From Ferranicluibacter rubi (GTDB lineage: Bacteria > Pseudomonadota > Alphaproteobacteria > Rhizobiales > Rhizobiaceae), in the NCBI RefSeq assembly GCF_011603255.1, contig NZ_JAANCM010000005.1, forward strand, positions 248,001 through 312,000: 64,000 bases of DNA. The letters run 5' to 3'. Shown here in pieces: positions 43,953 to 47,839 of this stretch. Under the pieces are notes generated by a model. That model worked only from the letters and a program-made list of their open reading frames with translations. It had not been told where the DNA came from and searched no databases. Positions within the stretch are counted from its first letter, which is position 1. Each line of letters begins with the position of its first letter. Both the position numbers and the translations under genes were made by a program.

Positions 43953-45782
43953 CTAAAGCGCAGCCGTCGCAGCTTCCAGCCAAGCCTTCACGTCCGCGCC
44001 GTCGATGAGCGGCGTCAGCTTCTCGCGCGTTTCGGCGTGGTAGGCATCGACCCAGGCGCGCTCCTCCTCCGTCAGAAGCTCGGGCAGGATGAGGCGGCGG
44101 TCGATGGGGCAGAAGGTCAGCGTTTCGAAGCCGAGCATCGTCTGGTCGCCACCCTCGACAGGGGCTGCGTCCAGCACATGCAGCAGGTTCTCGATCCGGA
44201 TTCCGAAGGCGCCGGGGCGGTAGTAGCCGGGTTCGTTGGAGAGGATCATGCCGGGCAGAAGCTCCTGCATGCCGGCGCGCGAGATACGCTGCGGCCCTTC
44301 GTGGACGGAGAGGTAGGAACCCACACCATGCCCGGTGCCGTGCCCGTAGTCGGCGCCGGCCTTCCAGAGGGCGATACGTGCCAGCGGATCGAGTTCCACG
44401 CCGCGCGTGCCCTTGGGGAAGCGCGCCGTGCTGATCGCGATCATGCCCTTCAGCACCAGCGTGAAGAAGCGCTTCTGCTCCGCCGGCACGTCGCCGATGG
44501 CGACCGTGCGGGTGATGTCGGTGGTGCCGTTGACATATTGCCCGCCGGAATCGACGAGGAACATGGTTCCCGCTTCGAGCGGCTGGTCGCTTTCCGTCGT
44601 CACGCGGTAATGCATGATCGCTGCATGCGGACCCGCCCCGGCAATCGTGTCGAAGGACACGTCCTTCAGTGGGTTCTGCAGACGTTCGCCGCAGGCGATC
44701 CGCACCGCTTCCAGCTTCTCCGTCGCAGCGATTTCGGTCACGGTGCCAGGCGTCGTTCCATCGAGCCAGGCGAGGAACTCGACCATGGCTGCCCCATCCT
44801 GCAGGTGGGCGCGGGCGGAGCCTTCGAGCTCGACCGTGTTTTTGCGCGCACGGGGAAGCCGGGCCGGGTCTGCCGCCTCGATCACGGTGCCACCGTCCTT
44901 GCGGATACGGTCGGCGAGCGCGACGGCGGCGTGGTCTGGGTCGAGTATGAGACTGACGCCGGATGTGGCGAGTGCCGACACGCGGGCTTCGAAGGTTTCC
45001 GGCGCTGCGATCTCGGCCATCTGGGTGAGGTAGGCTTTCTCCTCGATGCCGGTCTTGCGGGCGTCGAGGAAGATTTCGGCCCTGCCATCGGCATGGATGA
45101 TCGCGCGGGCGAGGGGATGCGGCGTGTGGGGGACGTCGTTGCCGCGCAGGTTGAACGTCCAGGCGACGGAGGAGGGGTCGGTGAGGATGACGGCGGCGGC
45201 CCCGGCTTTCACCACCGTCTCTGCCATGTCGGCGATCTTCTCCGTTGCGAGGATGCCGGCCTGTTCGATCTTCTGGATGACGACGCGGCCCAGCGGCGCG
45301 TCCGGCCGGTCGGTCCAGAGGCGGTCGAGGGGGTTGTGGTCGAGGTGGACGAGGGCGCCGCCGATCTTCGCCAAGGCGGTTTCCAGCTTGCGGACGTCCG
45401 CGCCCGTGTGAACCCATGGATCGATGCCGAGGCGGAAGCCCTTCGGCGCGTGGCGCTCGATCCAGAGGTGCGGCGGCTCGTCGATCAGGTCGCCGCCGGT
45501 AAAGACCGTGCCGTCCACCTGTTCGGCCAGCTGTGTGACGTATCGTCCGTCCACGAAAACCACCGCCGTCTCGCGCAGGATGAGGGCGATACCGGCCGAG
45601 CCGGTGAAGCCCGTCAGCCATGCCAGACGCTCGGCGGAGGCCGGAACGTATTCTCCCTGGAACTCGTCGGCCCGGGGCACGAGAATGCCATCGATGCCCA
45701 GCGCATCGAAAGAGGCCCGGAGACCGTCAGCCCGTTCGCGACCGAACTGCGGTGTGGAGGTGACGTCGAAGGACTGGAACAT
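43953..45782 (-). CDS. pepP: Xaa-Pro aminopeptidase (aminopeptidase P, M24B)
   Basis: A 609-residue three-domain aminopeptidase P, like eukaryotic-type APP1 rather than short E. coli PepP. Two creatinase-N domains (about 1-300) precede the pita-bread catalytic domain. Metal ligands appear in FLVDSGGQY, GTTDITRT, GTGHGVGSYL, SNEPGYY and IRIENLL. It removes N-terminal residues before proline. The ATG at 45782 is chosen because AGGAAG precedes it; an upstream ATG at 45797 would overlap that site. Confidence 0.92.
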   Translation of the reverse strand: MFQSFDVTSTPQFGRERADGLRASFDALGIDGILVPRADEFQGEYVPASAERLAWLTGFTGSAGIALILRETAVVFVDGRYVTQLAEQVDGTVFTGGDLIDEPPHLWIERHAPKGFRLGIDPWVHTGADVRKLETALAKIGGALVHLDHNPLDRLWTDRPDAPLGRVVIQKIEQAGILATEKIADMAETVVKAGAAAVILTDPSSVAWTFNLRGNDVPHTPHPLARAIIHADGRAEIFLDARKTGIEEKAYLTQMAEIAAPETFEARVSALATSGVSLILDPDHAAVALADRIRKDGGTVIEAADPARLPRARKNTVELEGSARAHLQDGAAMVEFLAWLDGTTPGTVTEIAATEKLEAVRIACGERLQNPLKDVSFDTIAGAGPHAAIMHYRVTTESDQPLEAGTMFLVDSGGQYVNGTTDITRTVAIGDVPAEQKRFFTLVLKGMIAISTARFPKGTRGVELDPLARIALWKAGADYGHGTGHGVGSYLSVHEGPQRISRAGMQELLPGMILSNEPGYYRPGAFGIRIENLLHVLDAAPVEGGDQTMLGFETLTFCPIDRRLILPELLTEEERAWVDAYHAETREKLTPLIDGADVKAWLEAATAAL

Positions 45783-45989
45783 GATGTCTTCCTGCATGCG
45801 GATGAGATGGAACGTTCCGCTTTATAGCAAATCCGGTCCCGATGTCCCATCGGTGCAGGCGGTGACCAAAGCGCCGAGACGCATTCATCATACTTATGCA
45901 GATTGCGCATGGCACCTATTCGCGCCAGCCCCTAGCTACCATCGGGCAATGCGTTAAAAGCACCGCCAACGGACGGGCCGCGAACACCC

Positions 45990-46215
45990 CGTTGCCGCAG
46001 ATGCCGCAAGGCAATCTTCTGAGTGATCCGTTCGATCGGTTGCCTTCTCCTCCTCCCTCCGGGCGCCGTTTTTGGGATCACGCAGAGTCCGCTTGAGCGA
46101 TCCTCCTCCTTTGGCTCGCGGACATTGGCCGGCTTGCCGGTCACGGGCGATGCTTCGGCATCGCCTTCGTTTACGAAAAGGCCGTCCCATGCTCCCGCAT
46201 CGGACGGCTTTTTTC
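45990..46215 (+). ncRNA. Candidate structured small RNA(s) with two anti-Shine-Dalgarno motifs
   Basis: In the 460-base gap between pepP and prmA lie CCTCCTCCC (46049-46057) and CCTCCTCC (46102-46109). The second sits in the loop of a clear hairpin: GTCCGC-TT-GAGC (46087-46098) with GCTC-GCGGAC (46114-46123). The first can be in a loop (CGGTTGCC with GGCGCCG, followed by TTTTT) or single-stranded next to an alternative stem AAGGCAATC/GGTTGCCTT. Further hairpins follow, one with a C(TTCG)G tetraloop (46146-46165), and a terminator ends the region at 46214. Exposed CCUCCUCCC loops are the hallmark of the rhizobial alpha-r14/NfeR1 RNAs. Ends and family are inferred; it could be two tandem RNAs. 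Confidence 0.5.
46181..46214. terminator. Terminator between sRNA candidate and prmA
   Basis: GCCGTCC (46181-46187) pairs with GGACGGC (46202-46208), followed on the plus strand by six T and on the minus strand by a CTTTTC stretch. It starts 35 bases past the prmA stop, so it probably works for both strands. Confidence 0.82.
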
Positions 46216-46242
46216 GTTATGCCCTATGCCGTTACCCGCGCT

Positions 46243-47124
46243 TCAGGCGCGGCTGTCGAGATGGATGGTGACCCAGCCGTTGCGCCACAGCGTGCGCACA
46301 TGGCGCAGCTTCTGGGCGTTGTAGGCGGACAGGACCTTCCAGCGCTGTTCCGCCAGGATGCCCGAGAGGATGACGGAGCCGCCAGGCACGAGGTGGCGGG
46401 CGAGGTCCGGCGCCATGCGCATCAGCGGGCGGGCGAGGATGTTGGCGATGATCAGGTCGAAGGGTCCGTGTTCGGAAAAAGCCGGCGACTGGAAGCCGGT
46501 GGCGGTGACGGCCGCGATGCCGTTGGCGATGCCATTGCGGCGAACGTTTTCGCGGGCGACGCGAGTGGCGATCGGATCGATGTCGGTGGCCAGCACCGGC
46601 ACGGTCTTGATCTTGCGAAGGCCGATCGCGAGAACGCCGCTGCCGGTTCCCAGATCCAACGCATTGGTGACGGTGCGCGAGCGCACGACGCTTTCGATCA
46701 TCTCCAGGCAGCCGGCCGTGGTGCCGTGGTGGCCCGTGCCGAACGCTTCGCCGGCGTCGATCTCGATGGCGATCTGTCCTGAGCGGACCTTGTCCCGGTC
46801 ATGCGAGCCGTGGACGAGGAACCGGCCGGCGGCGACGGGGCTCAGGCCCTCCAGCGACTTCGCGATCCAGTCGATATCCGGAATTTCCTCGCGCAGGATC
46901 TCGGTGCCGGGCTTCCAGCCATCCACGATCTCCGCGAAGCGCGCCTGGATCTCGTGCTCCTCGGCAAAGTCGAGATAGACGGAAGCCTCCCAGATGTCGC
47001 GCTTCTCGTCGATCTCCATCGTGGCGATGGCATAGCCTTCGTCCTCGAAGACGTCCGTCATCAGAGCGAGAACGCTGTCGGCACCTTTTTCGGTGGTGGT
47101 GAGATAGAGGCGCAAATCAGCCAC
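46243..47124 (-). CDS. prmA: Ribosomal protein L11 methyltransferase
   Basis: A 293-residue SAM methyltransferase. An N-terminal L11-recognition domain (about 1-110) is followed by the catalytic domain with GEAFGTGHHGTTAGCLE and motif I LDLGTGSGVLAIGL, then DLIIANILARPLM (the NxxP-like site reads NILARPL). It methylates lysines and the N-terminus of L11. Located downstream of a SCO gene on the same strand with a 115-base gap. Confidence 0.93.
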   Translation of the reverse strand: MADLRLYLTTTEKGADSVLALMTDVFEDEGYAIATMEIDEKRDIWEASVYLDFAEEHEIQARFAEIVDGWKPGTEILREEIPDIDWIAKSLEGLSPVAAGRFLVHGSHDRDKVRSGQIAIEIDAGEAFGTGHHGTTAGCLEMIESVVRSRTVTNALDLGTGSGVLAIGLRKIKTVPVLATDIDPIATRVARENVRRNGIANGIAAVTATGFQSPAFSEHGPFDLIIANILARPLMRMAPDLARHLVPGGSVILSGILAEQRWKVLSAYNAQKLRHVRTLWRNGWVTIHLDSRA

Positions 47125-47239: not shown

Positions 47240-47839
47240 TTAGCTCTTGGTCAGGTTTTCGAGCTTCTGGACGGCCGTGTCGGTGTTCTCGCCATAGGCG
47301 ATGGTACCGCGGAAACGACCTTCGGCGTCCAGCAGGAAGACGGAGGCCGAATGGTCCATCGTGTATTCCCCATCGGGCTTTTCCGCATCGAGCGGGACCT
47401 TCTTGGCGTAGACCCGGAAGCCCTTGACCATCTCCATGACCTTGTCCGGCGGGCCGGAAATGCCGGTGACGCGGGCGGAGACGTTGGAGACGTATTGCCC
47501 GAGAATCTCCGGCGTATCGCGTTCGGGATCGACGGTGACGAAGAAGGCGTTGAGCTTCGTGTTGTCGGGATCGACCTTGGCAAGCCAGCCGTTCATCTCG
47601 AACAATGTTGTCGGGCAGACCTCCGGGCAATGGGTGAAGCCGAAGAAGACGGCCGAGGGTCTGCCGGTCAGGGCCTTCTCGGTGATCGGCTGGCCGTTCT
47701 GCGACACCAGCGTGAAGGGAACCCCGAACGGCCCGCCCACGGCGGCCTCCTTGGTTTCCGTCATCTTGTAGGTGAGGAACCCCAACGCCGAGGCGGTGAC
47801 CAGAACGGCAATCCAGAGGACGATTCGAAAGAGTTTCAT
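47240..47839 (-). CDS. SCO1/SenC-type copper chaperone
   Basis: A 199-residue protein anchored by an N-terminal helix (about residues 4-24). The thioredoxin-like domain has the copper motif CPEVC (Cys71, Cys75) and the third ligand His163 in YTMDHSAS. SCO proteins deliver copper to the CuA centre of cytochrome c oxidase or keep it reduced, in the periplasm. The gene is not next to cytochrome oxidase genes here, which is common for a second SCO copy. Confidence 0.92.
   Translation of the reverse strand: MKLFRIVLWIAVLVTASALGFLTYKMTETKEAAVGGPFGVPFTLVSQNGQPITEKALTGRPSAVFFGFTHCPEVCPTTLFEMNGWLAKVDPDNTKLNAFFVTVDPERDTPEILGQYVSNVSARVTGISGPPDKVMEMVKGFRVYAKKVPLDAEKPDGEYTMDHSASVFLLDAEGRFRGTIAYGENTDTAVQKLENLTKS

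Follow-up and report, generated by a model that had tools for sequence, protein, structure and literature searches.

The closest described counterparts of the locus reported here are small RNAs that carry anti-Shine-Dalgarno motifs in open hairpin loops. Alpha-r14 RNAs have been described as consisting of three hairpins, each with an unpaired CCUCCUCCC motif, and NfeR1 has been reported to silence ntrBC in Sinorhizobium meliloti by motif loops that block the initiation of ntrB translation, with the three motifs acting redundantly on the two targets tested (PMC10746234). An LsrB box of the form TGCA-N6-GCAT was described for NfeR1 in the same paper (PMC10746234). Members of the Cuckoo RNA family have been described as neighbouring hairpins that carry CCUCCUCCC in their loops and vary in their stems (PMC3927594), and the arrangement called CIN1 combines DUF1127 genes with CcsR-like RNAs (PMC10253847). 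The reported regulon of VtlR includes DUF1127 genes and an sRNA (PMC12595884), and AbcR1 and AbcR2 are reported to stand beside lsrB in Sinorhizobium (PMC7143759).

The gap between pepP and prmA

We examined a candidate of this kind in Ferranicluibacter rubi (genome size 5.47 Mb), in a 64,000-nt stretch that we call the window. The initial annotation placed a small RNA in a 460-nt gap between pepP and prmA. This gap is present and measures 445 nt (45798-46242), extending from the start of a pepP-like gene at 45797 to the end of prmA at 46243, with both genes on the minus strand; a SCO1/SenC-type protein is encoded upstream of prmA (47240-47839, minus strand). The gap holds small plus-strand open reading frames (ORFs) of 40-82 aa, the 66-aa one of which has no match in Pfam, and it yields no match to the Rhizobium small-ORF profile described below. 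All seven genomes of the genus in the comparison, including the host, retain the region, the other six being 76-97% identical over the matched part, and the closest relatives as judged by prmA (92-97% identical) are Rhizobium sp. PP-CC-3A-592, isolate AFS017967, Rhizobium sp. NFR03 and Rhizobium sp. Leaf371. A literature search by gene and organism names found no paper on an sRNA between prmA and pepP in rhizobia, and the transcript may already be listed in an earlier RNA-seq data set.

Table 1. Features of the locus in the window, and ar14 genes elsewhere in the host genome
Feature	Position	Strand	Basis or remark
pepP-like M24 aminopeptidase	43953-45797	-	divergent neighbour; Pfam M24 and creatinase_N domains
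LsrB-type box TGCA-N6-GCAT, putative regulator site	45897-45910	+	exact in the window; role predicted
Putative core promoter: -35-like CTAGCT (45932-45937), 16 nt, -10-like TTAAAA (45954-45959)	45932-45959	+	by eye; predicted
Hairpin 1, loop motif CCUCCUCCC at 46049-46057	46018-46086	+	MFE fold; covariation, 34 sequences
Hairpin 2, loop motif CCUCCUCC at 46102-46109	46087-46123	+	fold; covariation
Hairpin 3, without motif	46127-46142	+	consensus fold; covariation
Hairpin 4, candidate terminator of the RNA itself; weak tail UUCGUUU in the window	46145-46173	+	covariation; tail from sequence
Inverted repeat, T6 on plus strand	46175-46215	.	folds on either strand
prmA, ribosomal protein L11 methyltransferase	46243-47124	-	convergent neighbour; Pfam PrmA, 210.1 bits
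Canonical ar14 genes (L146, L194-L197)	C33:87488-87611; C33:102249-102372; C11:559669-559790; C6:18982-19103; C6:93173-93289		

The two motifs of the initial annotation, CCTCCTCCC at 46049-46057 and CCTCCTCC at 46102-46109, are both present, and the second, in which CCUCCUCC is followed by U, indeed occupies the loop of a hairpin, whose stem is made of 6 and 4 bp with a 2-nt bulge. The window contains no excess of CCTCCTCC (4 occurrences versus 2.7 expected, with 29 of 100 shuffles as high), and thus the motif count proves nothing, whereas conservation does. The same distinction applies to folding energy. On the plus strand, 45990-46215 folds unusually well (z -5.25, versus -2.36 on the minus strand) because of the hairpins at its 3' side (46140-46216, z -6.95), while the part with hairpin 2 (46070-46150, z -0.28) and the side of hairpin 1 (45980-46073, z 0.17) are no stabler than their shuffles, and it is conservation and covariation in relatives that lift the motif hairpins above chance. 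The predicted ensemble of the window leaves the two motifs unpaired with values of 0.999 and 0.996. Their exposure, as originally proposed, extends to all 34 aligned sequences, where both loops are open and the lowest mean unpaired values are 0.75 and 0.92.

A second proposal, that two tandem RNAs are present, with the first ending at a terminator of its own at 46069-46073, was rejected. The TTTTT at this site lies within hairpin 1, in which 46024-46029 pair with 46075-46080, and the corresponding segment (45980-46073) folds no better than chance, as noted above. Because the T5 run behind loop 1 is internal to hairpin 1, we favour one RNA over two. Five T residues at this site occur in a single row of the 34, that of the window, and also in its near kin L054 and L055 outside the alignment. 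The more distal hairpin with a T6 tail (46181-46214) was correctly recognized; it is part of an inverted repeat that could stop transcription from either side, and this repeat is likely both a backup terminator of the RNA and the terminator of prmA. Pararhizobium loci have a different inverted repeat at this place. A generic scan of the plus strand reported neither a terminator nor a sigma-70 promoter.

Conservation, covariation and strand

The prmA side facing pepP was examined in 80 loci of relatives, and the hairpin 2 pattern matches 77 of them. Among the three that are missed, L076 is one base off the pattern and keeps both loops, and the other two (L075 and L077) are Xaviernesmea loci in which the stretch behind prmA has neither the loops nor pepP. 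In the 77 matching loci, CCUCC (CCTCC in DNA) is kept in loop 1 of 76, with L092 as the exception, and in loop 2 of all 77; the full CCTCCTCC is found in 63 and 57 loci, respectively. Only six of the 77 loci have a further CCTCC within the 70 nt that follow hairpin 2, and it lies within the terminator loop in L109 and L120 only. Loss of the loops from close relatives, the outcome named in advance as one that should overturn the proposal, did not occur: four loci of the genus keep both, although loop 1 is shortened in one of them (L057), and the window and all four have hairpin 2 with its full motif.

Covariation was assessed on an alignment (A1) of 34 of the 77 extracted sequences (the window and 76 loci, excluding L075, L076, L077 and L092), the remainder being more than 92% identical to one of these. 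RNAalifold recovered four helices from this alignment, with 98.0% of their 1086 cells paired and 18 of 32 pairs changing on both sides across the 34 sequences. All five covariation measures lie above all 500 shuffles, in statistics computed from related sequences that are not independent of each other. When the pairing partners are slid, pairing falls to 33-44%, a comparison in which the structure has the advantage of having been derived from A1 itself. The clearest case is the outer stem of hairpin 1, where each of the six pairs changes on both sides. Four pairs do so in each of the other helices, which have 10 (hairpin 2), 6 (hairpin 3) and 10 (hairpin 4) pairs, and hairpin 2 is the most conserved, with 99.7% of cells paired and half of its pairs never varying.

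The pairing cells also speak to the strand. They comprise 1009 Watson-Crick, 55 G-U, 9 A-C and 13 other combinations, and given the 55 to 9 ratio of G-U to A-C cells, we conclude that the plus strand is the folding strand. The consensus fold has an energy of -49.7 on this strand and -40.0 on the other, while 50 column shuffles give -4.6 (sd 2.4). Conservation, covariation and the G-U and A-C cells thus support the central proposal of a plus-strand RNA with two exposed anti-Shine-Dalgarno loops, and, as read from this comparative evidence, the element between pepP and prmA is a real, conserved structured RNA gene.

A covariance model (R1), whose training set includes the window, was searched in 121 genomes of the family and matched 48 of them at an E-value of 0.01 or better. 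Matches of at least 44 bits were found in 24 of these, some of which share their strain with a training sequence or are closely related to one, and the other 97 genomes have no strong match. Other motif-loop RNAs, or chance, probably account for many of the weaker matches. Twenty of the 24 strong matches fall within 500 nt of prmA. In the remaining four genomes (G099, G149, G015 and G142), the RNA stands beside pepP, separated from prmA by 2 to 38 kb (8-10 kb in G142 and G015). In genome G008, R1 gives 21.7 bits immediately behind prmA, which suggests a wider distribution of the locus than the model detects.

Kinship, putative promoter region and the small upstream gene

The initial annotation related the candidate to alpha-r14/NfeR1 and CcsR. 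This kinship finds support in intermediate orthologues and a shared upstream box, although the window copy itself fails the model: the alpha-r14 covariance model (RF02344, gathering threshold 58.8 bits) gives it 19.0 bits in a short scan and 13.6 bits in a genome scan, while five canonical ar14 genes elsewhere in the host genome reach 87.1 to 100.7 bits. In a scan of 11 relatives, only L081 matched, at 27.9 bits and below the threshold. Matches to other Rfam families (ncS025, mir-598, Bcj14, npcTB_6715, aspS and P37) fell well short of the respective thresholds, and we attribute them to chance. The intermediates emerged among 12 of the 24 strong-match loci that were inspected. Four of these, all beside prmA, have a third motif loop in the terminator, and their scores with the ar14 and R1 models are 39.3 and 100.2 bits (L178, genome G091), 52.8 and 66.8 bits (L184, G020), 53.1 and 65.3 bits (L185, G146), and 60.0 and 58.1 bits (L186, G114), with the last above the ar14 threshold. 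It is because of these intermediate orthologues, together with the shared kind of upstream box, that we link the window copy to alpha-r14.

The candidate resembles alpha-r14/NfeR1 in its hairpin loops, where CCUCCUCC(C) is unpaired, in its last hairpin, which forms a terminator, and in a TGCA-N6-GCAT box that keeps about the same distance from the start; orthologues of the window locus score 52.8 to 60.0 bits with the alpha-r14 model. In contrast to the three motif hairpins of alpha-r14, the RNA of the window has the motif in two loops, adds a hairpin 3 without it and also lacks it in the terminator loop. Alpha-r14 itself is a transcript of about 123 nt that acts independently of Hfq and silences mRNAs at their start region. 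The CcsR1-4 RNAs of Rhodobacter (RF02791) share the CCUCCUCCC loops, but are four tandem RNAs, which is not the arrangement here; the CcsR1 model (threshold 65.3 bits) has no match in the window at E-values up to 10, and orthologues of the window locus score 20.0 to 29.5 bits. Compared with the Cuckoo RNAs (RFMSmelA075/SmelA099), the window has two adjacent motif hairpins, with loops CCUCCUCCC and CCUCCUCC, and adds two further hairpins without the motif. AbcR1 and AbcR2 (ar15) share with the candidate RNA LsrB control, which is predicted here, and CU-rich anti-Shine-Dalgarno motifs (PMC7143759, PMC10746234), but they belong to another family, both copies of which stand beside the LsrB-like gene of the host.

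The simplest history of these forms would begin with an alpha-r14-like ancestor that had three motif loops and a motif-free hairpin, and that later lost the third loop. Alternatively, the third loop may have been gained. The rows with three loops (L178, L184, L185 and L186) have long branches on the prmA tree, and therefore we do not date the loss.

Upstream of the RNA, TGCA-N6-GCAT is present in exact form in 49 of 77 relatives and with at most one mismatch in 76, and the exact box, which is all that this control covers, occurs in 5 of 1600 random windows of equal length. Within the window as a whole the pattern is not rarer than chance (3 matches versus 2.84 expected). The box is separated from the -10-like element by 57 nt in the window, which is also the commonest distance in the 77 loci, and with a predicted RNA start near 45966 it falls at about -69 to -56, matching the LsrB-type box that alpha-r14 genes have near -72 to -60. 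The putative core promoter of the window is weak (CTAGCT-N16-TTAAAA versus CTTAGAC-N17-CTATAT for alpha-r14) and better in Pararhizobium loci (CTAGAC-N16-CTATAA, by eye). A further element, GCATGGC, is present in 59 of the 80 loci. The published VtlR motif (PMC12595884) fits 78 upstream regions with a mean of 10.9 of 15 positions, ahead of all 200 shuffled motifs (highest 9.5); the window fits at 9 of 15, and the host ar14 genes at 11-13 of 15 in four cases and at 9 in the fifth. The host encodes an LsrB-like regulator of 302 aa, with a thioredoxin reductase gene, recognized by eye, beside it. Two tandem ar15 (AbcR-type) RNAs stand beside the regulator gene (98 and 93.4 bits; C38:130781-130915, L219), in agreement with the position of AbcR1 and AbcR2 beside lsrB in Sinorhizobium (PMC7143759).

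A likeness to CcsR and CIN1 of another kind is a small DUF1127-like gene directly upstream of the RNA in relatives, which the window does not have. A profile of this ORF matches with at least 50 bits upstream of the RNA in 43 of the 80 loci (14 of which were used to build the profile), and in the family genomes it gives 81.7 bits in G091, 50.4 in G149 and 32.2 in G017, and leaves traces in G009 and G146. The window and the four genus loci, like the Pararhizobium and Shinella loci among the 80, gave nothing above 5 bits. Neither Pfam nor NCBIfam gives the ORF a name, and its DUF1127 likeness comes from profile comparison alone, in which it was compared with DUF1127 matches of the host (84.5%, E 7e-6 with five members; 46.1%, E 2e-4 with fourteen). 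Two weak DUF1127-like matches in the host (19.0 and 15.4 bits, with a cut-off of 23.3) at C6:33868-33957 and C6:34166-34228 (L207 and L208) share a contig with an ar14 gene that is some 15 kb away.

Pairwise comparison of 25 of these ORFs, with the last nine codons excluded, gave 2408 differences at third codon positions and 1119 and 1031 at first and second positions, yet more of the changed codons are non-synonymous (1947) than synonymous (1600), and thus the constraint on the mini-protein appears moderate. The ORF is interrupted by a stop codon within the match in 8 of the 43 loci, all of the Rhizobium lusitanum/rhizogenes group (L082, L083, L086, L087, L089, L094, L121 and L126), and the RNA hairpins remain. 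In 33 of the 43 loci the ORF ends in YAF, YVF or similar residues, and those codons lie in the 5' arm of hairpin 1. A quick prmA tree calls for five changes in the presence of the ORF, which may be gains or losses.

These observations allow a tentative scenario, to which we give slightly less than even chances, in which a small RNA has been caught on its way out of an mRNA. The LsrB-box transcript of Rhizobium would carry both the DUF1127-like mini-protein and the motif-loop RNA, with the last codons of the former and its stop codon forming the 5' arm of hairpin 1. The protein would have been lost in the lineage of the window, in Pararhizobium and in the Shinella loci among the 80, where the RNA would persist with two loops rather than three.

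Proposed function and significance

We regard it as likely that the locus is a single gene for a trans-acting sRNA, extending on the plus strand from about 45966 to 46172 or 46214, and that it is a diverged orthologous branch of the alpha-r14/CcsR ('cuckoo') RNAs that blocks ribosome-binding sites. Comparison among relatives has shown conservation, structure, strand, open loops, the upstream box and intermediate forms of this candidate gene; its transcription, control by LsrB and target blocking are steps that we infer. LsrB or a similar LysR-type regulator would activate the promoter, and the transcript would fold into four hairpins, whose two single-stranded CCUCCUCC loops would pair with the Shine-Dalgarno sequences of target mRNAs. 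By analogy with NfeR1, pairing of these two open loops would stop the 30S subunit from binding and reduce translation. A third motif loop was probably present in the terminator of the ancestor, and in many relatives the RNA follows the small DUF1127-like gene; the lineage of the window has neither the loop nor the gene. The best reading is that the RNA of the window works like alpha-r14 even though it falls outside formal ar14 membership. A search of the host genome for AGGAGGAGG 3-9 nt before an ATG, which detects strong Shine-Dalgarno sites only, gave ten occurrences, and none for the backward pattern; we claim none of the ten as a target. Five of them were judged to precede a plausible gene, and these genes encode a solute-binding-like secreted protein (recognized by eye, without a Pfam match), a catechol-type dioxygenase, an MFS transporter, an ArsR-type regulator and a thioesterase.

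The CCUCC loops could also serve another purpose, with the conserved RNA binding a protein (DUF1127-type or a ribosomal component) or acting as an sRNA sponge. Such a role would be in keeping with stems that are as conserved as the loops, above all in hairpin 2 with its five invariant pairs of ten, with the frequency of the DUF1127-like gene upstream (43 of 80 loci), and with the report that the DUF1127 protein CcaF1 binds RNA (PMC10253847, PMC12501420). However, the feature that all forms share is the anti-Shine-Dalgarno loop, which in alpha-r14 is reported to act on ribosome-binding sites (PMC10746234), and we consider this other mode of action unlikely. Less probable still is that the copy in the genus is a decaying and hardly expressed relic of an RNA that works in relatives. 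Its weak -10 element and hairpin 4 tail, the missing upstream ORF and the shortened loop 1 of L057 might be taken as signs of decay, but the region has been kept throughout the genus (7 of 7 genomes), and hairpin 2 retains its full motif in the window and the four genus loci.

We see the smallest chance of all, and a very slight one, for an element of the minus strand, which would be part of the prmA 3' end or of a pepP leader and would show GGAGGAGG loops. Both neighbours are on this strand, and its fold is also better than shuffles (z -2.36), but the excess of G-U cells (55 to 9) and the stronger consensus fold belong to the plus strand, the conserved box stands at the 5' end of the plus-strand RNA, and in 4 of the 24 strong-match genomes the RNA is found beside pepP at 2 to 38 kb from prmA.

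If the locus is indeed an sRNA gene that blocks ribosome-binding sites, it would be the sixth such RNA in the host, beside the five canonical ar14 genes. Given that the Rfam model misses the copies scanned (that of the window and those of most relatives), the annotation of these Rhizobiaceae genomes probably overlooks one anti-Shine-Dalgarno RNA. The series of forms, with three loops, with two loops and a mini-protein, and with two loops and no mini-protein, could be used to establish whether the number of loops sets the strength of regulation, and also why alpha-proteobacteria couple motif-loop RNAs to DUF1127-type proteins. Should the tentative scenario of an RNA leaving its mRNA be true, then the LsrB regulon would include a dual protein/RNA unit that has undergone stepwise reduction and is directly testable.
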